Position numbers and translations under genes: made by a program. The notes under the pieces are model-generated. The model was not told the DNA's origin, ran no database searches, and saw only the letters and a list, made by a program, of their open reading frames with translations. Shown piece after piece: positions 20,401-32,053 of a stretch of DNA of 64,000 nucleotides. How positions within the stretch are numbered: position 1 is the first letter of the stretch; each line of letters begins with the position of its first letter. Origin of the DNA: Streptomyces sp. I6 (GTDB lineage Bacteria > Actinomycetota > Actinomycetes > Streptomycetales > Streptomycetaceae); NCBI GenBank assembly GCA_003725745.1, contig RHDP01000001.1, positions 1,047,001 through 1,111,000 of the forward strand, given 5' to 3'.

Positions 20401-21297
20401 GTGCGGCGTCGGGTGCGCGCGTCGGACGGGCGGCATCTGATGGTGGAGCGCCTGGGGGATCCGCGGGGCAGACCGGTCTTCCTGCTGCACGGCACTCCGG
20501 GCAGCCGCCTGGGACCGGCGCCGCGCGGCATGGTGCTGTACCAGCGGGGGATGCAGCTGATCGCCTACGACCGTCCGGGATACGGCGGTTCGGACCGGCT
20601 GGCCGGCCGCAACGTGGCGGATGTGGCCGGGGACGTACGGGCGATCGCCGACGCCCTGGGCCTGGACCGGTTCGCGGTGGTGGGGCGCTCCGGCGGCGCA
20701 CCCCACGCCCTGGCCTGTGCGGCGCTGCTGCCCGACCGGGTCACCAGGGCCGCGGCGCTGGTGACGCTCGCGCCGCGGGACGCGGACGGTCTGGACTGGT
20801 TCGAGGGCATGGCGGCGTCGAACGTGCTCGAGTACACAAGGGCCACGGTCGACCCCGACGGGCTCACGGCGCGGTTCATCATCCGCTCGGCGGAGATCCG
20901 GCGCGACCCGGTCCGGCTCCTGGACGACCTGCGCAGGGAACTCACCGATTCGGACCGGATGGTCGTCGCGGACGCCGGCGTGCGGTCGATGCTGCTGCGC
21001 AACTACCAGGAGGCGCTGCGCACCTCGCCGTACGGCTGGATCGACGACGCCCTCGCCTTCTGCGGCCCCTGGGGCTTCGACCCCGCCGGCATCACCGCGC
21101 CCGTGCTGCTGTGGCACGGCGAGAAGGACAGGTTCTCACCCGTCGGCCACTCCCGCTGGCTGGCGCAGCGGATCCCGGGGGTGACGGCCGTGCTGGAGCC
21201 GGCCGCGGCCCACTTCGACGCGCTGCACGCGCTCCCCCGGATCCTCACCTGGCTGCTGGAGGACCACCCGGGGAACACCCGCCGGCCGGGCGGCTGA
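20401..21297 (+). CDS. Alpha/beta-fold hydrolase (cytoplasmic)
   Basis: A 298-residue alpha/beta hydrolase. It shows the oxyanion segment FLLHGTPGSR near residue 27, the nucleophile elbow VVGRSGGAPHAL with Ser97, a late acidic residue in VLLWHGEKDRFSP and the active-site His in AAAHFDALH. No signal peptide or membrane helix is seen, so it should be cytoplasmic. Substrates in this broad family range from esters to epoxides and cannot be inferred. The GTG at 20401 was chosen because AAGGAGG precedes it at ideal spacing; ATGs at 20302 and 20332 are weaker options. Its 3' end merges into a 45-base tandem repeat. Confidence 0.85.
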   Translation: MRRRVRASDGRHLMVERLGDPRGRPVFLLHGTPGSRLGPAPRGMVLYQRGMQLIAYDRPGYGGSDRLAGRNVADVAGDVRAIADALGLDRFAVVGRSGGAPHALACAALLPDRVTRAAALVTLAPRDADGLDWFEGMAASNVLEYTRATVDPDGLTARFIIRSAEIRRDPVRLLDDLRRELTDSDRMVVADAGVRSMLLRNYQEALRTSPYGWIDDALAFCGPWGFDPAGITAPVLLWHGEKDRFSPVGHSRWLAQRIPGVTAVLEPAAAHFDALHALPRILTWLLEDHPGNTRRPGG

Positions 21298-21530: not shown

Positions 21531-24500
21531 TCAGACGGCCAGCGGTTCCAGGTCGCGATGGGTTCTGCGCTCGTCCTTGGCGATCCGGGTCAGCGCGTGA
21601 TCCTCACCCAGCAGCCGCGCCAGTTCATCCGCCGTCTCCGCCCGCAGCGCCGCCGCCTCGTCCTTGCGGCCCAGCGAACTGAGGGTGACGGCGATGTTGG
21701 AGGAGACGGCGAGGACCTCGGGGTGGTGCACGCCCAGGACCTCGCGCAGCCTCGTCACCGCCCGCCGCTCGGTCTCCAGCGCCGACTCCAGCTCGCCCAG
21801 GTCGGCTCGGGCGTTGGCGAGGTTGACGGTGCAGAACAGCGTGTGCGGGTGGGCCGTGCCGAGGACGTCCGTCATCCGGCGGACGGTGGCCAGCAGCAGT
21901 TGCTCGGCGGTCTCGGGCTCGCCGCAGCCCCACTGGTAGATCCCGAGGTTGTTGATCGCGGCGAGGGTGTAGGGGTGCTTCCCGCCCGGCACCTTCGTGT
22001 ACTGGTCGACGACCTCCTGGGCCAGGTCCCGGGCCGCCACCGGTTCCCCCGCCGCGAACAGGTCGGCCGCCAGGTTCAGATCACAGGCGAGGGAGTCCGG
22101 GTTGGCCGAGGTGTACTTGGCGCGGTAGCGGTTGCGGGTGGCCGTCGTCAGCCGGCGGGCGTCCTCCAGCCGGCCGGCCCGCCGCAGGGACACCGCGAGG
22201 CTCTTGCCCGCCGCCAGGGTGCCGGGGAAGACGCGGCCGAGGGTCCGCTTGTAGCTGTCGTAGGTGCGGCTGAGGAGGCTGACGGAGTCCTCGTACCGGC
22301 CGACCTCCCGCAGGTCGCGGGCCAGCGAGGTGGCGGAGGAGAGCGTGTACGGATGCTCGGGGCCGAGTACCTCGGTACGGCGGTCGAAGACGTCCTGGTC
22401 GATCTCGCGGGCCCGCGCGTACTGGCCGACCATCCGCAGGTTCAGCGCCAGGTTGTTGGCGGCGGCCAGGGTGCGCGGGTGGGACTCGTGGAAGATCTGG
22501 CTGAACCCCTCGTGCGCCTCGGTGGCCAGTTCCATGGCCTTGCCGTACTGGCCGAGGGTGCCGAGGTCCATCGCCAGCCCGCTGGTGGTCATGTACGTGT
22601 GCGGGTGCGACGGGCCGAGCACGGCGCGCTGGCGTTCCAGGGTGACCTCGTCCAGCTCCCTGGCCTCCACGTAGCGGCCCTGGGAGCGGAAGATGTTGGA
22701 GAGGTGGAAGCGCAGGTACAGGTACTGCAGGTCGTCGTTGCCGAGCATCTCCCGCCAGACCTCGCGCAGATCGTCGCCGAGGGCGCCGGCGGCCTGCCAG
22801 TCACCGCGCTTCCAGAGGTAGCGCACCCGGTCGATGAGCAGTCGGCGGGTCTCGGGCTCCTTGCAGTAGCGGGCCTCGGAGGGGCCGAGATGCGGCCAGA
22901 TGGTGCTGAACCGCGGCCAGGTCTCGGGGTTGTCGATCGGCTCGTCGTCGTCGGGCCGGGCGCCGGCGAGGACGCGGTGGACGGCGTGCTGGGCGTCCCG
23001 CTGCTCCTCCTCGCTGAGCTGGGCCCGGATGACGGCCTGCACCAGCCGGTGCACCTGGATGGAGTTGGAGACCTGGTCGACCTTGGCGAGGGCGAACCGG
23101 CCGATCTCGCGGATGACGCGGCCGAGTACGAGCTTCTCCTGGAGGGAGGGGTCGTACGGCTTGAGCGCGTCGATCATCTCCTTGCTGTAGAGGAGGTTCG
23201 CCGAGATCGGCTCGGGGGCGAAGAAGGCGCAGAGCTGGAGCAGCCGCACCGCGGCCGGCGAGCGCTCCTTGAGGCGCTCGATGGAGACGTTCCAGGTCGC
23301 GGCTACCGGCTCCGGGTAGCCGGCGGGCTGGTTGAGTGCGAGGACGCGGGGCGCCTGCTGGGCGAGCTGCTCCAGGTAGGCGGCGACGGGCGTGGCGGTC
23401 TCGGCGATCCATGCGGCGGCCTGCTCGACGGCGAGCGGCAGGTCGCCGACGGCGGCGGCGACCTGGTCGGCGTCCTGCGGGGTGAGTCCGGGTGCGCGGC
23501 GCTGGAGGTGCTCGACGGACTCCTCGCGGAGGAAGACGTCGACGGGCAGGGCGTCGCCGTACTGGGACCAGGTCTGGTTCCTGGAGGTGACGAGGATGTG
23601 GCCGCCGCTCGGGAAGAACCGCTTGAGCTGCTCGGGGTCGTCGGCGTTGTCGAAGACCAGCAGCCAGCGGGAGGTCGGCACGCCCCGCCTGAGCAGGTCG
23701 ACCGCCTCCTGCGAGGCGGCGGCCATGTCCTCGCCGCCCTGGGCGCCGAGGCGGGTGGCGAGTTCGGCGAGTCCGGCGACGACGTCGTCGGTCTGCTCGG
23801 AGGAGATCCACCACACCAGGTCGTAGTCGGCCATGAAGCGGTGCACGTACTCCAGCGCGACCTGGGTCTTGCCGACGCCGCCGAGGCCGTACAGCGTCTG
23901 GGGCTGCGGCAGTACGACGGCCATGCCGCCGCTGAGCTGGTCCCGCATCCGCTCCAGGACCAGGGACCGGCCGGTGAAGCCGGGGTTGCGGGCGGGCGCG
24001 TTCCAGATCTTCGGGACGGTTCCGGGGAAGCGCGGGCCGGGCGCGACCCCGTCGGTGAGCTGGACCGGACGGTCGAGCGCGCGCAGCAGCGCGCTGGTGG
24101 CGTGCACCTCGTCGAGGCGGAAGAGGTCGACGGGGTTGCGGTCGATGTAGGGGGCGGTGAGGCGTACGTCGCCGACGCGCAGCGGCAGCAGATGGCGGCC
24201 GCGGCCCCCGCCCGGGTCCTCGGCCGCGGCCCGTTCCCACACCCGCACGGCGCGGGCCGACTTGAGGTAGGCGCTGGAGAGCAGGACGACCGTGCGGGCG
24301 GCGTTCTCGGGTGCGGGGAGGGCGGCGCCGTCCCCGGGCGGTTCCGCCGAGACGTCGCGCGGCACGACCCGGAACCCGGCGCGGGTGAGGACGGACTCGA
24401 TCCAGTCGGCCCACATCCGGTTCTCGGCGACGTAGCTGAGGAACAGGTCGGCGGGCAGTGCGGGCCGGCGGCGGGTGAAGGCGTCCCTGATCCGCAGCCT

Positions 24501-25462
24501 GATCTCCTCGCCGACGGTGGGCATGGCGGTGATCTCCCCTTCGGTGATGACGGCGGTGAGCCGTTCGAAGGCGGAGAGCAGGGAGTTGGTGAGTCCGGCC
24601 TCGTCGCCGAAGGTGGCGAGGGTCTCCTCGTAGGCGTAGTAGGGGCGGTACGGGATCTCCACGGCGCCCCAGTAGGAGGTGAGGTCCTCGCCGGACAGAC
24701 CGGTGGGGAACCGGTCGAACTTCAACCGGGCCAGGGCGCGTCCGGCGTCGGCCTTCTCCTTCTCGCCCTCGTCGATGCGCATGGGGACGGGCAGGACGCG
24801 GATGCCGCGGCCGCCGTAGCGCTCGTCGATCTGGCGGGCGACGGCGGCGGCGCCGTCGATGGACTGGTCGCTGAGGGTGAAGCAGTCGACGAGGACGTCC
24901 GGGAGGTGGACGGTGCAGATGTCCGCGATGTCGCTGAGCCCGGTGCGGCTGTCGATGAGGACGTAGTCGTAGTTGGCCTTCATGTCGTCGCGCAGCGCGT
25001 CGAAGAAGTGCCCGCCGCCGAGCCGGTCGTAGAAGTTGTCCCAGTCGAAGGTGGAGACGGTCGCCGAGTACTCGCGGTTCTGCCTGCCCGCCGAGACGAA
25101 GTCGAGGGTGCCGCCCTCGGGGAACTCCCAGCCGAGGTTCTCGGGGGTGAGGGAGACGGCGTGCGGCTGGATGCGCGCGTAGTCCCGGTGCCAGTCGTCG
25201 GGACGCTGCACGGGGCTCGTCGCTGCCCAGGCGTACTCGGTGATCAGGTCGATGACACCGGTGGTGGCGCCGAGCGTGGACGGGTCGAGGAAGGGGTGGA
25301 AGAAGCGGTGCAGGCCGGGCGCCTCGAGGTCCCAGTCGACGGCGAGGACCCGCCTGCCGTTCGCGGCGAGTATCCAGGCGGTGTTGGCCATGGCCATCGT
25401 CCGCCCGGTTCCCCCTTGTAGGAGTAGAACGTGACGATGCGTCCGTCACGACTGGCTGTCAT
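21531..25462 (-). CDS. fxsT: FxSxx-COOH system ParA-like/TIR/NB-ARC/TPR protein FxsT, one frameshift as read
   Basis: About 1310 residues. The N-terminus is a ParA/MinD-like domain: deviant P-loop KGGTGRTM once the frame is restored, then VLAVDWDLEAPG and the switch DYVLIDSRTG. A TIR-like segment follows near residue 340 (ADLFLSYVAENRMWADWI). An NB-ARC type ATPase has P-loop LYGLGGVGKTQVALEYVHRF near 490 and Walker B WLLVFDNADD. The C-terminal half is a series of tetratricopeptide repeats, each with an HP-T-type motif. This is the large TPR protein conserved in FxSxx-COOH RiPP loci, with an architecture like bacterial STAND/NLR immune proteins. The frame breaks in the C-run 25411-25415; one added base restores it. 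The ATG at 25462 overlaps fxsC by 17 bases. Confidence 0.85.
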
Positions 25463-26877
25463 CCGTGTCCTCCGCATCCGGCGCATGGTCGAGCGTGTCG
25501 GGGATGTAGTGCGTGGTGGCGTACTCGGCCGCCATGGGGCCGCGCAGCCTCGGACGTTCGGTGTGGCTGCCGCCGGCGGGCGGGTAGACCTGGGCGTGGC
25601 GCAGGTACTGCTGGGCGGCCGCCTCCACGACCTGGGGAGGATCTGGCCGAACGCCTCCATGCTCGGTACGCCGCGGGCGGCGGCGCGGCAGGCCGCGCGG
25701 CCCTGGCCCAGCTTGGTCGGCAGGGTCTGGGCGAGCTTGGCGCCGAGGACGCCCTCGGCGCCGCGGCTCTGGTGGTCGTCGCGGTTGAAGGGGACCACGA
25801 TACTGACCCAGGGCCGGTTCTCGGCGTCGAAGGCGGCGAGCTGCTCGCGTCTGTCGTCGTCCTCCAGGGCCCAGCGGTCGACGATGAGCAGCTCCGGTCT
25901 GGTGGGCGCCTGCTTGCTGTCGAGGGGTGCGCTGTCGTGGTCGAACGAGGCTATGGTGGCTTGGTAGTTGAGGGTCCGCACCAGGTCGCGGGCGATATAG
26001 GCGAGCGGCCGGTGCGCCTCGGGGTAGTAGGGGTTCCAGTCCTGCGGCATGTCGCCGTAGTACTGCGGGTCGCGTCCCGGGGGAGGTCGTGCAGGGTCGG
26101 TGCGGCCACGGTCACCTGGATGGGTCGGGGCCGGTGCGGCGCGGGCCGGCGGGGCCGGGGGCCCGAAGGCGCTGGGGGCCTGCCGGTAGTCGAGGGGTCT
26201 GCTGGGCCCGACTGCGGTGGTGTCCGCGACGCTGACGATGCGTTTGGCGAGTTCGTAGACCGCCCGCTCGTACTCCTCGGCGAATATCCGGAGTTTGATC
26301 AGTCCGTAGAGCCCGTCGGTGACGTAGCGGTCGCCGAAGGCGCGGTGGTTGAACTGCAGCCGCTCGGCGGGGCCGGGTAGCTGCTCGGGGGGCACCGGCA
26401 CCCAGAGCGCGGGCACGATGGCCTCGGCGGGCCGGTTGCTCTTGGCCTGGTGGAAGATCTCCCGCTGGGCGAAGGCGTACCACTCCTTGCCGCACATCTC
26501 GCTGGCGAAATAGCGGGGGAGAACAGCGGTACGAACACCCGGCAGGTGGCGAGGACTTCGGCGAGGCGCTCGGACCACCCCTCACCGGAGCGTATCTCCC
26601 GGTCCATGAATCCCGCCTGCGCACCGGCGGGGAGATCCGTCATGGCCATCACATGGCCGCACAGGTCCCGGAAGAGCCGCTCCACCCACATGTCGGGATC
26701 CGGCACACCCGCCAGATACCTCGGTGTGTGCGCATAGCTCAGGAAGAAGTACGGCCGATGGTCCGCCGCACGCTGCTGCGATGACGCCTGCACACGCCCC
26801 CGTCCCGTATGAACACCCGCACTCGGTGGTGATGAGGTGCCGGCGGTTCCATCATTCCGGAGCAGACGTTGCTCCAT
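25446..26877 (-). CDS. fxsC: TIR-like protein FxsC of the FxSxx-COOH system, two frameshifts as read
   Basis: The N-terminal domain (after a roughly 40-residue tail) starts YFFLSYAHTPR and continues with GFMDREI, RVFVPLFSPRYF and SEMCGKEWYAF, the strand-helix pattern of TIR domains. A Pro-rich linker near residue 240 separates it from a C-terminal domain (LLIVDRWALEDDDRREQLAAFD, WVSIVVPFNRDD) found in FxsC proteins. The frame breaks at the G-runs 26515-26519 and 25634-25637. One restored base in each gives 477 residues ending Asp-Asp-Ser-Gln-Ser. The ATG at 26877 is used; a GTG at 26793 is the shorter alternative. No biochemical activity is established for FxsC. The TIR fold suggests NAD-linked or signalling chemistry, which is inference. 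Confidence 0.82.
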
Positions 26878-26897
26878 CCCCTGGTCCTTCGGTCAAA

Positions 26898-27673
26898 TCA
26901 ACGCCGCTTTCCGGACATCCACGTCACTGCATGGTCCACCGCATCGGTGATCGAGAACAAGGTCGCGTTCGTTCCCCCCAGTCGTCCCTGCTGTTCGATA
27001 TTCCGGGAGAAGGCGGCTCCGAGGTCCTCGAAATCACCGTCGTCGAGTTCGACGTCCAGGTATTCCGTCCATTCCGGGCCGTGCGCCCCGCGCACCACGC
27101 AGGCGTACCGGCGCAGCGGTGCGCCGGTACGGTACTCCGCCAGATGGAAGGCGGTGCAGACGGAGAACCCCACATTGATCATCAATACCCGCGCCCCTGC
27201 CCGGTAGAGCGCCCCGAGGGGGATTCCTCACCGAGGTGGCAGGTGAGCGGGTGCCGGGAGAGCAGCTCCCCCGCCCTCCGGCCGAGCGCGGCGAACGAGG
27301 TCTGGGGGTGGGCGCTGCGCACCGCGCCCCGGGCGGTCCGCACGGACTCGGCCAACCGGCCCATCCCGGTGCTCGGCGTGACGGCAGGGTCGAAGGCGGG
27401 CATCTTGGCCCGAAAGGCCGCCGCCTGAGTGGGTGTCATCCCGGCCACGCGCCGCAGATACGCGGAGGACGTGTCGGAGTTCTCGGGGGTGAAGGCGGGG
27501 ACCACGAGCGTGCCCTCCTCGCCGACGGCCCTCAGCAGGGCGTCGCGCAGCCCGGCGGCGTCCATGCCGGTGCCGCCGATGCCCGCGTGGACGAGGACCG
27601 TCTCCCCCGCCCGCAGCCCCAGTTCCGTCAGCCGCCGCGCGAGCCCGTCGCGTTCAGCGGCTCTGCCGGTCAC
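26898..27673 (-). CDS. AAC(3)-family acetyltransferase in the FxSxx-COOH locus, frameshifted as read
   Basis: A 258-residue protein of the aminoglycoside 3-N-acetyltransferase fold. The N-terminal VLVHAGIGGTG, the GTLVVPAFTPENSD strand and the active-site-type HPQTSFAALG motif are all present, followed by the C-terminal YLDVELDDGDFEDLG segment. AAC(3)-like genes recur beside fxsB in Streptomyces. Whether this one acylates an antibiotic or the peptide product is unknown, and the locus context favours peptide tailoring (inference). The frame breaks at the G-run 27218-27222. One restored base joins GEESP to LGALYRAGARVLMIN. The start overlaps fxsB by 20 bases, and fxsC begins 20 bases downstream. 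Confidence 0.82.
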
Positions 27674-29873
27674 GGTCCGCCTCTTCCCACAGCAGCGCCA
27701 GCAGCGCCTTCCCGCCGACGGTGAGTTCCGCGGCCCGGCCCAGGGTGTCCAGTGCCCTCAGGGCGGCCTCCGCCCCGTCCGGGTCGAAGGGGCGCAGCCC
27801 GGTGCGTTCGTACGCCCCCGCCAGCAGCTCGGACACCGGGACCGGCGGCTCCTGCCACGGCGCCGGATGCGTCCACCGGCCGTCGTCCGCGTACAGGTCG
27901 GTGACCTCCAGCAGGGCCCGCAGGCGCGCCCGGCGCCAGCCGCGCAGCAGCAGCGGCGCCAACTCCTCGGCACCGGCCCGCAGAGGGACGCCCAGAGCGC
28001 CGATTCCGTGCCGCCCGACCGCGGGCCGCGGGCCGTCGACGGGGTCAGCGTGGTGAGCGACGCGGCGGCGGCCGCGGCCTGTTCCGGTGCGCGGGCGCGC
28101 AGCAGTCCCCAGGCACACGCCAGCCGGTCCGTCCACGCGGCCGCCTCGTCGTGGCCGAGCCGGGGCGGCACCGGGACGCCGAAGCAGTCGCGGTACGGGT
28201 CGAGGTCGTCGATGGCGAGGTCGGGCGCCCCGTCCCGGCCGAGCCTGCGGACGGGCCGCCAGCAGGCGCCCGGTTCGTCGGGGCGCGGGATGCGCGTCTC
28301 GCTGCCCCCGGCCCGCACCAGGAGCCCCTTCTCGACGGGCCGCACCTCCGCGGTACCGCTCGGTTCCACCCCGCTGAAGCGGAGTTCGCCGAGCGTGGGC
28401 AGCAGCAGCGTCCCGCCCTCGTACGGGACCGGGACCGCGAGGTCGAGGCCGCCGCGGACGGCTGCCGCGGCGACCGTCGAGGCGAGCCTGGCGGCCGGGA
28501 GCGGCGCGGCGCCGGCCCCGCCCTCGCGCAGGGCGTCCAGGGAGCCGAGCAGCCAGCCGCGGGTGTACGGGTGGGTCAGCACGCCGTCGAGCGTGCCGGG
28601 ATGCCGGTCGACGGTGCCGGCCAGTTCCCAGGCGCGGGCCCACGCGTCGCCGCCGCGGCCGTCGAGTTCCCGGTGGAGGTCGGCGAGGAGCAGCCGCGTC
28701 AGCTCGTGCTGTTCGCTCCGCAGCTCCCCGTCGTCGGCGACCGCGGCGGGCACCGACCGGGCGGCGGTGCGATGCTCGATGCCGCGGACGAGGGCCTCGA
28801 GGTCGGTGCAGTAGACGGAGGCGTTCTCGAAGCCGGTGCCGGAGCGGTAGCGGTGGCTGTAGAGGCCGCCGCCGCAGGAGCGGACGACGGGGCAGTCGCG
28901 GCAGGTGCCGGCGACGCCGGCGAGGCCGAGCTGGCGGGCCCGGACGCCGGGGTGGGCGGCGACCTCGTCGAAGGTGTGGGCGAAGACGTCGAAGCCGGTG
29001 GCCGCAGCGCCCTCGTAGGCCGTCTTGAGCGAGTCGGCCTGCTCCAGGGTGCCGTCGGTCTCGACGACGACGAGGTCCGTGGGGTGAGGCCGAGCGATTC
29101 GGTGAGTCCGGGCCCCCGGAGAGCGTGGAGAGGACCGAGGCGAAGAGCCGCACCGGCACCCGGCGGCCCTGCCGGTCCCAGCGGTCGAAGACGGTCAGCA
29201 GCCAGTCGGCGTACGCGGTCGGGGACCCGCCGGGCCGGGGCGGCGGCTCGTCCCATGTGGCGTGCGGCAGCAGGAAGTCGATGCGCGGGGGGTCGAGCTC
29301 CATCAGCGCGTCATGGACGGCGACGGGGTCGTTGGCGACGTCGACGGTGCACAGCAGTCCGAGGTTGAGATGGCGCCAGCGGTCGGTGCCCAGCAGCTCG
29401 GCGGCCTTCAGCACCAGCGGGTGGCTGCTGCGTCCGTCCGCGAAGCGGCGGTGGCGGTCGTTGGCGGCCTTGTCTCCGTCGAGGGAGATGCCGACCCTGA
29501 CGCCGAACTCGTCGAAGAGTTCCAGATAGCGGGGGCTCAGCTGGATGCCGTTGGTGTGAATGCGCAGGTCGAGGGCGGCCACACCGTCGAGGGCCTGGGT
29601 GAGTTCCTCACAGACCCGGCGTAACCGGGTGGGGCCGGCGAGCAGCGGCTCCCCTCCGTGCAGGATCACTGACACGGAGGGCAGGGCATGTTTCTTCGCA
29701 TGCTCGGCCAGTCGCAGAGCTGTCCAGAAAATCGCCTCGTCAGAGATTGCTTTCGGGCGGGTGCGCCAGCTCTGATCAGCGTGTTCGTAGATGTAGCAGT
29801 GGTCGCAGGCGAGATCGCATCTGCTGTGGACCTTCAGTACGATCTCGCGGAACGGGACCACGGGTCGGGTCAT
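27654..29873 (-). CDS. fxsB: FxsB cyclophane-forming radical SAM/SPASM peptide maturase, three frameshifts as read
   Basis: The radical SAM CxxxCxxC motif is at Cys19, Cys23 and Cys26 (RCDLACDHCYIYEHADQSW) and binds the 4Fe-4S cluster that activates SAM. Further motifs are VILHGGEPLL and the Gly-Ile-Ser-Leu-Asp-Gly strand. Around residues 325-360 the SPASM region (GTCRDCPVVRSCGGGLYSHR) supplies auxiliary cluster cysteines. The remaining roughly 380 residues are the long C-terminal extension typical of FxsB. The frame breaks at 29113-29117, 29081-29084 and 28041-28044, all G/C runs short by one base. Restoring them gives 740 residues. It is predicted to crosslink the C-terminal FxS of FxsA into a three-residue cyclophane. 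It starts 50 bases after fxsA. Confidence 0.9.
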   Translation of the reverse strand: MTRPVVPFREIVLKVHSRCDLACDHCYIYEHADQSWRTRPKAISDEAIFWTALRLAEHAKKHALPSVSVILHGGEPLLAGPTRLRRVCEELTQALDGVAALDLRIHTNGIQLSPRYLELFDEFGVRVGISLDGDKAANDRHRRFADGRSSHPLVLKAAELLGTDRWRHLNLGLLCTVDVANDPVAVHDALMELDPPRIDFLLPHATWDEPPPRPGGSPTAYADWLLTVFDRWDRQGRRVPVRLFASVLSTLSGGPDSPNRSASPHGPRRRRDRRHPGAGRLAQDGLRGRCGHRLRRLRPHLRRGRRPPRRPGPPARPRRRRRHLPRLPRRPLLRRRPLQPPLPLRHRLRERLRLLHRPRGPRPRHRASHRRPVGARRGRRRRGAAERTARADAAAPRRPPPGTRRPRRRRVGPRLGTGRHRRPASRHARRRADPPVHPRLAARLPGRPARGRGRRRAAPGRQARLDGRRGSRPRRPRPRGPGPVRGRDAAAAHARRTPLQRGGTERYRGGAARREGAPGAGRGQRDAHPAPRRTGRLLAARPQARPGRGARPRHRRPRPVPRLLRRPGAAPARPRRGGRVDGPAGVCLGTAARPRTGTGRGRRRVAHHADPVDGPRPAVGRHGIGALGVPLRAGAEELAPLLLRGWRRARLRALLEVTDLYADDGRWTHPAPWQEPPVPVSELLAGAYERTGLRPFDPDGAEAALRALDTLGRAAELTVGGKALLALLWEEADRDRQSR

Positions 29874-29923: not shown

Positions 29924-30088
29924 CTAGAGCGCGGAGTTGAACGTGGACATCCGTGCGGATCGGTCGGTGCCGGCGGGGCGCACGCGATCCAGTTTCCTGG
30001 CCGCCTCGGCGTCACGGACATCGATCTCGGCGAGGGGCACCCGGCCCTTTTTCACAGAAGCAAAGGTGACTGAGGTCTGGAGGGTCAC
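29924..30088 (-). CDS. fxsA: FxsA, FxSxx-COOH cyclophane-containing RiPP precursor peptide
   Basis: A 54-codon gene directly upstream of fxsB on the same strand. The peptide starts with GTG (VTLQTSVTFAS), contains the family segment RVPLAEIDVRDAEAARKL at about residues 16-33, and ends MSTFNSAL. The last five residues Phe-Asn-Ser-Ala-Leu fit the FxSxx-COOH signature exactly. In this family FxsB links Phe to the residue two positions on, so Phe50 and Ser52 are the likely crosslink. An in-frame stop lies 15 bases upstream, so GTG at 30088 is the only start available. There is an AGGA-like ribosome site at about 9 bases. The peptide has no Cys and no export signal, so processing is unknown. Confidence 0.9.
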   Translation of the reverse strand: MTLQTSVTFASVKKGRVPLAEIDVRDAEAARKLDRVRPAGTDRSARMSTFNSAL

Positions 30089-30294
30089 GACGGCCGTCCT
30101 AGGTCATATCGTGCTGACGGGGGAGAACACCGGGCACCGTTGCAGTGTCGGCGGCACGACTTTACTCTCATGACCACCCGCAGCAACTCGGCCCGGAGCG
30201 CTGATACAAAAGCGTGGCGCGAGTATGCCCCACTCCGAACGGAACAAGCCATTCCATCGAACGAGTGAAGCCACCATCCGCAGAGGGGGTACGG

Positions 30295-31227
30295 ATGACC
30301 GGCGTTCCCGGCCATCTGCAAAGCATGGTCTTTCGAAATGCCGATCTGCCGGCACTGTTCCACAGGGCGGACGAGACGGCCGTGGACCGGCAGCGTGAGG
30401 CGGTCAAGGGCACCCGCCTGCAGCTTCTCCTGCTGGTGCTGGGCTCGGTGCTCGCGGTGCTGCCGTGGCGCGGGAGGATCGGCGAGTCCTTCCAGCTCAT
30501 GGGTCTGCTCAGCGCGTCGGCGTACGCCTGGGTACTGGTGGCCGGCTTACGCGGGACACGGCGCCGGGCGAAGTCGCACTGGCAACTGAACCGCTCCGCG
30601 GCGGAGTTCATCCGGTCGATGTGCTGGCGCTACGCCGTGCACGGGGCGCCCTTCGACTCCGGCTCACCCGATCCGGACCGGCTGTTCGCCACCCGGCTGG
30701 AGGAGGGGCTCCGGGAACTGCGCAAGGTCGGCTGGGTGGACCCCCGCGAGGAGGGCGGGGGCGCGGTGACCGGCGAAGTGATCACCACGCCGATGAGACT
30801 GCTGCGGGAGAAGGTCTTCAGCGTCCGCAAGGAGACGTATGTGAGGGACCGCCTGATCGAGCAGCGCAACTGGTACCACCGGCGTGCGGAGATCTCCCGG
30901 CGCGCGACCGCGCTGTGGACCGTGGTGATCAGCCTGCTCACCGCACTCGCGCTGCTGTTCGGGGTACTGCGCACCTTCTCCGTCACCGACTCGGCCGAAC
31001 CGGTGCCGCTGCTGTCCGCCGCGGCGGCCGCGTGTCTGGCCTGGAGCGAGATCCGGCGCCACCAGCCGCTGATCGCGGCCCACTCCCTGGTGGAGGAGGA
31101 CCTGGCCGCGATCCACATCGCGATGGAGACCTCGGTGACGGAGGAGCAGTGGCCGTCGGCCGTGTACGAGACCGAGCGGATCGTCTCGCCCCAGCACACC
31201 GACTGGCTCGTGCAGCACCGTAGTTGA
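30295..31227 (+). CDS. SLATT/DUF4231-domain membrane protein divergent from the fxs operon
   Basis: A 310-residue protein with two pairs of membrane helices: about residues 42-58 and 67-85, then about 205-225 and 236-252. Each pair is followed by a charged helical stretch (RAKSHWQLNRSAAEFI; EIRRHQPLIAAHSLVEEDL). This is the pattern of SLATT/DUF4231 proteins, predicted pore-forming effectors linked to SMODS and SLOG nucleotide-signalling conflict systems. The ATG at 30295 follows an AGAGGGGG site. It shares a roughly 200-base promoter region with fxsA. A SLOG-type gene lies 350 bases beyond its 3' end on the opposite strand. The family call rests on topology and helix pattern and should be tested by profile search. 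Confidence 0.7.
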   Translation: MTGVPGHLQSMVFRNADLPALFHRADETAVDRQREAVKGTRLQLLLLVLGSVLAVLPWRGRIGESFQLMGLLSASAYAWVLVAGLRGTRRRAKSHWQLNRSAAEFIRSMCWRYAVHGAPFDSGSPDPDRLFATRLEEGLRELRKVGWVDPREEGGGAVTGEVITTPMRLLREKVFSVRKETYVRDRLIEQRNWYHRRAEISRRATALWTVVISLLTALALLFGVLRTFSVTDSAEPVPLLSAAAAACLAWSEIRRHQPLIAAHSLVEEDLAAIHIAMETSVTEEQWPSAVYETERIVSPQHTDWLVQHRS

Positions 31228-31573: not shown

Positions 31574-32053
31574 TCAGGTGCGCTCGACCCCGTCGCACCA
31601 CACCACCGTCACCGGCTTGCCGCGCTCGCGCGCGTACCGGACGATGTCGCCGGTGCCGCCCAGCCCACGGGCCGGCCGTCCGTCCCAGACCGCCAGGAGC
31701 CGGTCGCAGTTGTCCGCGATATAGGCACCGGCCGCGTAGTACGCCTCGTCCGTGGAGCGGGGGAACGCCAGCCGGACCTCCTGGCTGGCCCGGCGCCGGA
31801 GCCGCCGGTAGCGGGCCAGCGCGCATGGGTCGCCGAAGCCCTCCTCGTAGTCCCCGCTCGGGATGACCACGGTGAGTTCGGCGCCGCAGGCGAGGGCCAT
31901 GTCGGCGAAGATCTGGTCGGCTCCCTCGGCCAGGCTGGAGAGCGCTTCCAGCCCACCCTCGTGGCCGCACAGCACCGCCTTCATCCCGGCCAGCACATGC
32001 GGCATGGCCTCGGAGGGGATGTCTCGGTGTCCGGTCACTCCGATGCGCTTCAC
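31574..32053 (-). CDS. SLOG-superfamily (DprA/LOG-like) Rossmann protein
   Basis: A 159-residue single-domain protein starting MKRIGVTGHRDIP. The Gly-x-Thr-Gly-His-Arg start, LSSLAEGADQIFADMAL, TVVIPSGDYEEGF and late DRLLAVWDGRPARGLGGTGDIV match the SLOG (YpsA/DprA-LOG-like) fold, which binds nucleotides or nucleotide-derived ligands. It is intact with a GTG start and a weak ribosome site. It lies convergent to the SLATT gene, and SLOG proteins are predicted sensors for SLATT effectors, so the two may work together. It could instead be a housekeeping nucleotide-binding protein. Confidence 0.72.
   Translation of the reverse strand: MKRIGVTGHRDIPSEAMPHVLAGMKAVLCGHEGGLEALSSLAEGADQIFADMALACGAELTVVIPSGDYEEGFGDPCALARYRRLRRRASQEVRLAFPRSTDEAYYAAGAYIADNCDRLLAVWDGRPARGLGGTGDIVRYARERGKPVTVVWCDGVERT

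Follow-up and report, generated by a model that had tools for sequence, protein, structure and literature searches.

A 54-codon frame just upstream of a radical SAM maturase gene in Streptomyces sp. I6 raises the question of whether it encodes the peptide on which that enzyme acts and, if so, what such a peptide would do among the genes that surround it. We examined this frame, fxsA, and its neighbors in a 64,000-nucleotide stretch of contig RHDP01000001.1, here called the window, and compared them with related loci. A first description of the frame had been made from the letters of the window without database searches (the sequence-only reading). The features of the locus are collected in Table 1.

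Table 1. Features of the fxs locus and its surroundings, in window coordinates
Feature	Position	Strand	Basis
Alpha/beta hydrolase gene, far side of fxsT	20401..21273	+	97% identity to L062 copy
fxsT: MinD-like KGGTGRT domain, TIR, NB-ARC, TPR	21531..25397	-	NF040586 1062 bits; TIR_2, NB-ARC, TPR_12
fxsC: TIR-like protein, frame-split	25449..26877	-	NF040588, TIGR04276
AAC(3)-like Antibiotic_NAT acetyltransferase gene, frame-split	26898..27673	-	PF02522 in both pieces
fxsB: FxsB-type radical SAM/SPASM cyclophane maturase with C-terminal inactivated beta-hydroxylase extension (FxsBH), frame-split	27654..29873	-	TIGR04269, NF040587
fxsA: 54-codon FxSxx-COOH precursor	29924..30088	-	TIGR04268, dN/dS, F.S.. 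frame 5' of fxsB across loci
Conserved non-coding block GTAAAGTC...GACACTGCAACGGTGC, between fxsA and SLATT	30134..30170	.	16-sequence alignment
SLATT_3 + SLATT_1 two-TM gene, putative effector, divergent from fxsA, intact	30295..31227	+	PF18184, PF18181
SLOG-fold (YpsA-like) gene, convergent with SLATT, intact	31574..32053	-	predicted structure model

A short frame before fxsB is a conserved coding gene

The frame lies on the minus strand, which the sequence-only reading had not stated, and runs from a GTG at 30088 to a stop ending at 29924, with the translation VTLQTSVTFASVKKGRVPLAEIDVRDAEAARKLDRVRPAGTDRSARMSTFNSAL. The frame had been placed 50 bases 5' of a radical SAM maturase, in agreement with the position of the downstream fxsB ATG (29873) and with the match of window fxsB to TIGR04269 (389 bits). 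It had also been credited with an FxSxx-COOH ending, and the core Phe50-Asn51-Ser52-Ala53-Leu54 (FNSAL) does stand immediately before the stop; the leader-like segment noted there, RVPLAEIDVR, is conserved among relatives. As proposed, an in-frame stop 15 bases 5' of the GTG, with no start codon in between, rules out a longer fxsA. The sequence AGGACGG lies shortly 5' of the GTG and is present in most aligned orthologues. The claim that fxsA is below gene-calling size limits and would be missed by default did not hold: 54 codons are not below the usual limits, and the gene-length floor of Prodigal is 90 bases.

The profile search suggested earlier as a check matched fxsA to NCBIfam TIGR04268 ("FxSxx-COOH cyclophane-containing RiPP peptide") with 38 bits (E 1.4e-9, cut-off 28) over profile positions 1-44 of 44. 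In a whole-genome search (E 0.001 or better), where it scored 37.1 bits, it was the sole match in its own genome. Pfam and PADLOC returned no match to fxsA. Besides a score above cut-off along the full profile, it shares with the family the C-terminal F-x-S-x-x and an adjoining FxsB-type maturase, and is a new but ordinary addition to an FxSxx-COOH family already named.

Start-to-stop frames of 30 codons or more number 464 over the two strands of the window, and fxsA is the single one with an FxSxx ending. We compared loci in a sample of 80 named loci, which favors close relatives because it took the 80 best among 419 confirmed relatives of the SLOG protein encoded in the window. A sense FxSxx frame of at least 30 codons was present in the 1 kb 5' of fxsB at 75 of 77 named fxsB loci, against 0 of 77 in the antisense control and 6 among 1282 1-kb stretches drawn at random from the same loci (all among the best 80 of 419). 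Between the window and each of seven orthologues, dN/dS was 0.17-0.41, with values up to 0.61 for other orthologue pairs, and differences over 376 codons numbered 83, 101 and 174 at codon positions 1, 2 and 3. All eight aligned sequences, window included, end in FNSAL or FSSAL. fxsA is a real, conserved coding gene under purifying selection.

Within the block between fxsA and the SLATT gene, GTAAAGTC is invariant across 16 aligned sequences, and the block probably has a regulatory role, judged by its conservation. A simple promoter and terminator scan around fxsA found none. On the SLATT strand the block resembles, by eye, TTGCAG-N17-TACTCT, for which we claim no promoter.

FxsB and its predicted product

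Compared with an intact relative, window fxsB lies in three pieces and two frames: C-x3-C-x2-C falls in an open N-terminal piece, the middle is in the other frame, and the C-terminal pieces match NF040587, the inactivated extension. The earlier remark that fxsB needs repair was thus borne out. The intact S. wuyuanensis FxsB scored 585 bits against TIGR04269 (cut-off 370) and 448 bits against NF040587 (cut-off 225), and the intact protein has 740 residues in loci L062 and L110. All 70 full-length relatives kept C-x3-C-x2-C as well as Cys 325, 328 and 334, and 69 of the 70 kept Cys 356. Since HExxH after residue 350 was found in none of these 70 proteins, the releasing peptidase assumed by Kaur et al. 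(PMC7159879) is not evident in FxsBH.

The neighboring enzyme probably staples the FxsA peptide into a ring. MscB (IPR026335) belongs to what we take to be the FxsB family. Because a review passage credits MscB with bonds from Phe C4 to Ser C-beta, and because the NCBIfam names of TIGR04268 (cyclophane-containing) and TIGR04269 fit this chemistry, a three-residue Phe50-Ser52 cyclophane is the likely product of FxsA and the best prediction by analogy with relatives. Compared by description, the MscA/MscB triceptide pathway has an F-x-S motif and an FxsB-like enzyme in common with the fxs locus.

Precursor variation and distribution

With F.S.. as the only search pattern, a matching frame was found 5' of fxsB at 76 of 77 named loci (among the best 80 of 419). 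The tails were FNSAL at 51, FSSAL at 11 and FNSSL at 10, with four single variants, and one of the 77 fxsB loci carried two candidate precursor frames (again among the best 80 of 419). A peptide alignment of 75 relatives and the window required F.S.. and a P-L-like leader for entry, so that columns F50, S52 and partly L19 are pre-selected; in unselected columns, R35 was present in 76 of 76, with N or S at 51, A or S at 53 and L, I or V at 54. The closest relative was the S. wuyuanensis locus, with 94% DNA identity over a 1,021-base fxsA-fxsB stretch.

TIGR04268 matched in 67 of 150 genomes of the genus (E 0.001 or better; 54 above cut-off) and in 50 of 296 of the class (35 above cut-off). A further correction to the sequence-only reading is that an NCBI family model already exists. 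The model does miss some relatives, as an FxSxx frame lay 5' of fxsB at 10 of 12 SLATT-plus-fxsT loci without a nearby TIGR04268 match. At the other two of these 12, L074 and L077, we found no FxSxx frame 5' of fxsB. A second frequent precursor class in the genus has tails of the LWGF-N-[SN]-A-F type, and in several of them the third residue is Asn, which means that Ser does not serve as acceptor throughout. From this class fxsA differs in its leader, K-x-x-R-V-P-L-x-x-I-D-V-R, and its FNSAL core.

fxsA travels with SLATT, SLOG and the fxs genes

At the loci found with the SLOG protein (the best 80 of 419), some of which end at contig ends, SLATT was present and convergent with SLOG at 80, fxsB was present at 77, fxsC at 70 and fxsT at 69. 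When the intact L062 proteins served as queries, SLOG, SLATT, fxsB, fxsC, fxsT and often the AAC-like gene recurred in the fetched relatives.

Across the genus, at least 40 of 52 SLATT_3 matches had fxsT or fxsA no more than 15 kb away, where about 0.4 would be expected under random placement; the fxsT set for this linkage comprised the best 55 fxsT matches listed (932 bits and more). Seen from fxsT, SLATT_3 was within 15 kb in 38 of 45 among the fxsT matches listed with 1000 bits or more. Genomes with both SLATT and fxsA numbered 39, with SLATT only 10, with fxsA only 28 and with neither 73 (Fisher p 2e-9, kinship ignored). In the class sample, a TIGR04268 match lay on the same contig within 15 kb in 7 of 10 same-genus SLATT_3 genomes; five strong SLATT_3 matches in other genera, inspected by eye, had none nearby.

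Part of this linkage may be inheritance at a fixed site, because the flanks are conserved in the window's clade. Among the 80 named loci (best 80 of 419) they held protease-like matches at 73, which may include other proteases, a DUF gene at 42, acyl-CoA dehydrogenase at 41 and MFS at 34. These flanks weaken the linkage as a pure signal of selection. Yet a divergent clade without the window's flank matches (L071-L078, L082 and L070) kept SLATT at 10 of 10 loci and SLOG at 9 of 10.

Of 45 fxsT sequences, 31 have SLATT on the fxsA side and 8 have it on the fxsT side, while no SLATT was found for the other 6. The eight fxsT-side loci form one clade (support 100 in a quick tree), and their arrangement resembles the outcome of inverting the fxsA-fxsT segment that lies between SLATT-SLOG and the hydrolase, which weakens the case for an independent move. 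SLOG-SLATT pairs without fxsB occurred at L116, L158 and the short contig L156 (best 80 of 419). At L108 (7378-8788) the pair sits beside window-type flanking genes, and no fxs genes were found within the 20-kb stretch; judged by gene content, the fxs operon there would have been lost or never gained.

Proteins encoded around fxsA

The NB-ARC Walker A of FxsT was intact in 45 of 45 sequences, and the TIR glutamate of FxsC was invariant in 43 of 43 relatives. The TIR of FxsT is variable at the catalytic-type glutamate position, with Glu in 15 of 44. It is perhaps an adaptor TIR, with FxsC supplying a putative enzymatic partner TIR. The AAC(3)-like gene lies inside the fxs operon at 32 of the 80 named loci (best 80 of 419), and its enzyme perhaps acetylates a ligand or the FxsA peptide.

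The SLOG protein is a single domain of 159 residues that matched no family profile. Because sequence searches gave no annotated solved relative at E 1, and a second search only DprA (E 0.74), we used a predicted structure. The model has the Rossmann-like fold of SLOG proteins and appears YpsA-like, with the ThsA SLOG domain and TRPM2 lower in the list of structural matches.

Translated comparison (tblastx) of the flanks was noisy and served solely to point to the alpha/beta hydrolase. Its L062 copy matched PF00561 with 78 bits, and Ser-Asp-His was kept in 42 of 42. Among 48 relative loci selected around fxsA, fxsT or SLATT matches, a hydrolase homologue stood beside the fxs operon in 42, including the SLATT-less L103-L107. 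The enzyme is a candidate for peptide release. PADLOC did not list FxsA, FxsC, SLATT or SLOG at the locus.

A proposed circuit and its alternatives

The gene set looks like a bacterial immune circuit. We consider it probable, taking the parts jointly, that fxsA is an FxSxx-COOH precursor whose FxsB-made cyclophane serves a circuit running from FxsT to FxsC and on to SLOG and SLATT. FxsB would read the FxsA leader around RVPLAEIDVR and join the Phe50 ring to the Ser52 C-beta, so that the very C-terminus would carry a three-residue cyclophane. The modified peptide would serve the NLR-like FxsT, most likely by acting inside the cell as a ligand or guarded bait for the TPR/NB-ARC part of FxsT. Upon a disturbance, for example by phage, FxsT would oligomerize and recruit the TIR protein FxsC, which would make an ADP-ribose-type signal; SLOG would sense or process this signal, which would open the SLATT membrane effector. 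For the peptide's role and the signaling that follows, this is the most likely course that we infer from the linked genes. Speaking for this reading are the intact Walker A of FxsT, the invariant TIR glutamate of FxsC, the SLATT linkage with its retention in the divergent clade, and the appearance of the ThsA SLOG domain among the structural matches. Speaking against it are the conserved flanks of the window's clade, the loci inside and outside the genus where the parts occur separately, the lack of HExxH in FxsBH and the absence of FxsA, FxsC, SLATT and SLOG from the PADLOC listing.

Alternatively, FxsA could yield a secreted natural product, an antibiotic or signal, with the TIR, NB-ARC and SLATT genes responding to it or protecting the producer. 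FxsA is indeed a RiPP precursor with an AAC(3)-like gene in its operon, and a passage of Kaur et al. regards the peptide, once processed, as a toxin or signal (PMC7159879). Yet no transporter is among the genes identified from SLOG to hydrolase at the intact L062 locus (SLOG, SLATT, fxsA, fxsB, AAC-like, fxsC, fxsT and hydrolase), and the nearly invariant core (FNSAL in 51 of 77, among the best 80 of 419) is unlike that of an antibiotic under diversifying selection. A secreted product seems unlikely to us.

The broken genes raise the possibility that the locus is decaying in the source strain, with fxsA left as a relic. In the window (21531-29873), frame-splits affect fxsB, the AAC-like gene, fxsC and the beginning of fxsT, with pieces sitting in different frames (the first codons of fxsT are in another frame); these genes are open in L062 and in S. 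wuyuanensis. However, fxsA, SLATT, SLOG and the hydrolase gene have open frames, and of 32 single-base indels against S. wuyuanensis (L110) over 18,730 aligned columns, 25 are bases missing from the window. Such one-sidedness is what long-read error typically produces, even though no more than 9 of the 32 lie within runs of at least three. The source assembly, in two contigs, is only 87.4% complete, whereas 146 of 150 genomes of the genus satisfy limits of 90% completeness and 5% contamination. The likeliest cause of the splits is sequencing error across the assembly, and genuine decay is improbable.

That fxsA is a chance frame of GC-rich DNA with an accidental F-x-S-x-x ending is hardly credible: the frame is short, starts with GTG and lies in DNA rich in long spurious frames, but its above-cut-off profile score, its dN/dS and the excess of FxSxx frames over the controls lead us to reject it.

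Relation to described systems

The reading in which a cyclophane peptide serves FxsT can be set against two described systems. The standalone FxSxx systems in the passages of Kaur et al. 2020 (PMC7159879) comprise, as here, a peptide gene, a radical SAM-SPASM gene and an AP-ATPase with a MinD/ParA-like domain; for the peptide after processing, that paper predicts a role as toxin or signal linked to the AP-ATPase. The core described in that source has a zincin-like metallopeptidase, whereas the FxsB extensions of the present locus type lack HExxH. Its passages on SLATT and SLOG concern other systems, while here both adjoin the fxs genes. A literature search at the terms used found FxSxx systems treated in PMC7159879 and did not find them joined with SLATT or SLOG.

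Thoeris pairs the TIR protein ThsB with ThsA, a SIR2-SLOG fusion. At our locus the ThsA arrangement, an effector fused to SLOG, is absent: SLOG is YpsA-like, stands as a protein of its own and carries no SIR2 fusion, the putative effector is SLATT, the switch would be NB-ARC/TPR, and a predicted modified peptide is added. We suggest tentatively, and would sooner doubt than assert, that the locus represents an anti-phage or other conflict system not described before, in which the cyclophane peptide acts as ligand or guard of FxsT and FxsT drives FxsC, SLOG and SLATT; it would then be a relative of Thoeris-type signaling that is gated by a peptide.

In itself, fxsA is one more precursor for a named family, with a likely product; the linked conflict-system genes make the locus of more interest than fxsA alone. 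The function of FxSxx peptides has so far been a guess, toxin or signal in the passages of PMC7159879. Linkage to an NB-ARC/TPR switch, a TIR candidate, SLOG and SLATT would give a cyclophane peptide a specific, testable role in immunity, and intact copies of the locus are carried by many named Streptomyces species.
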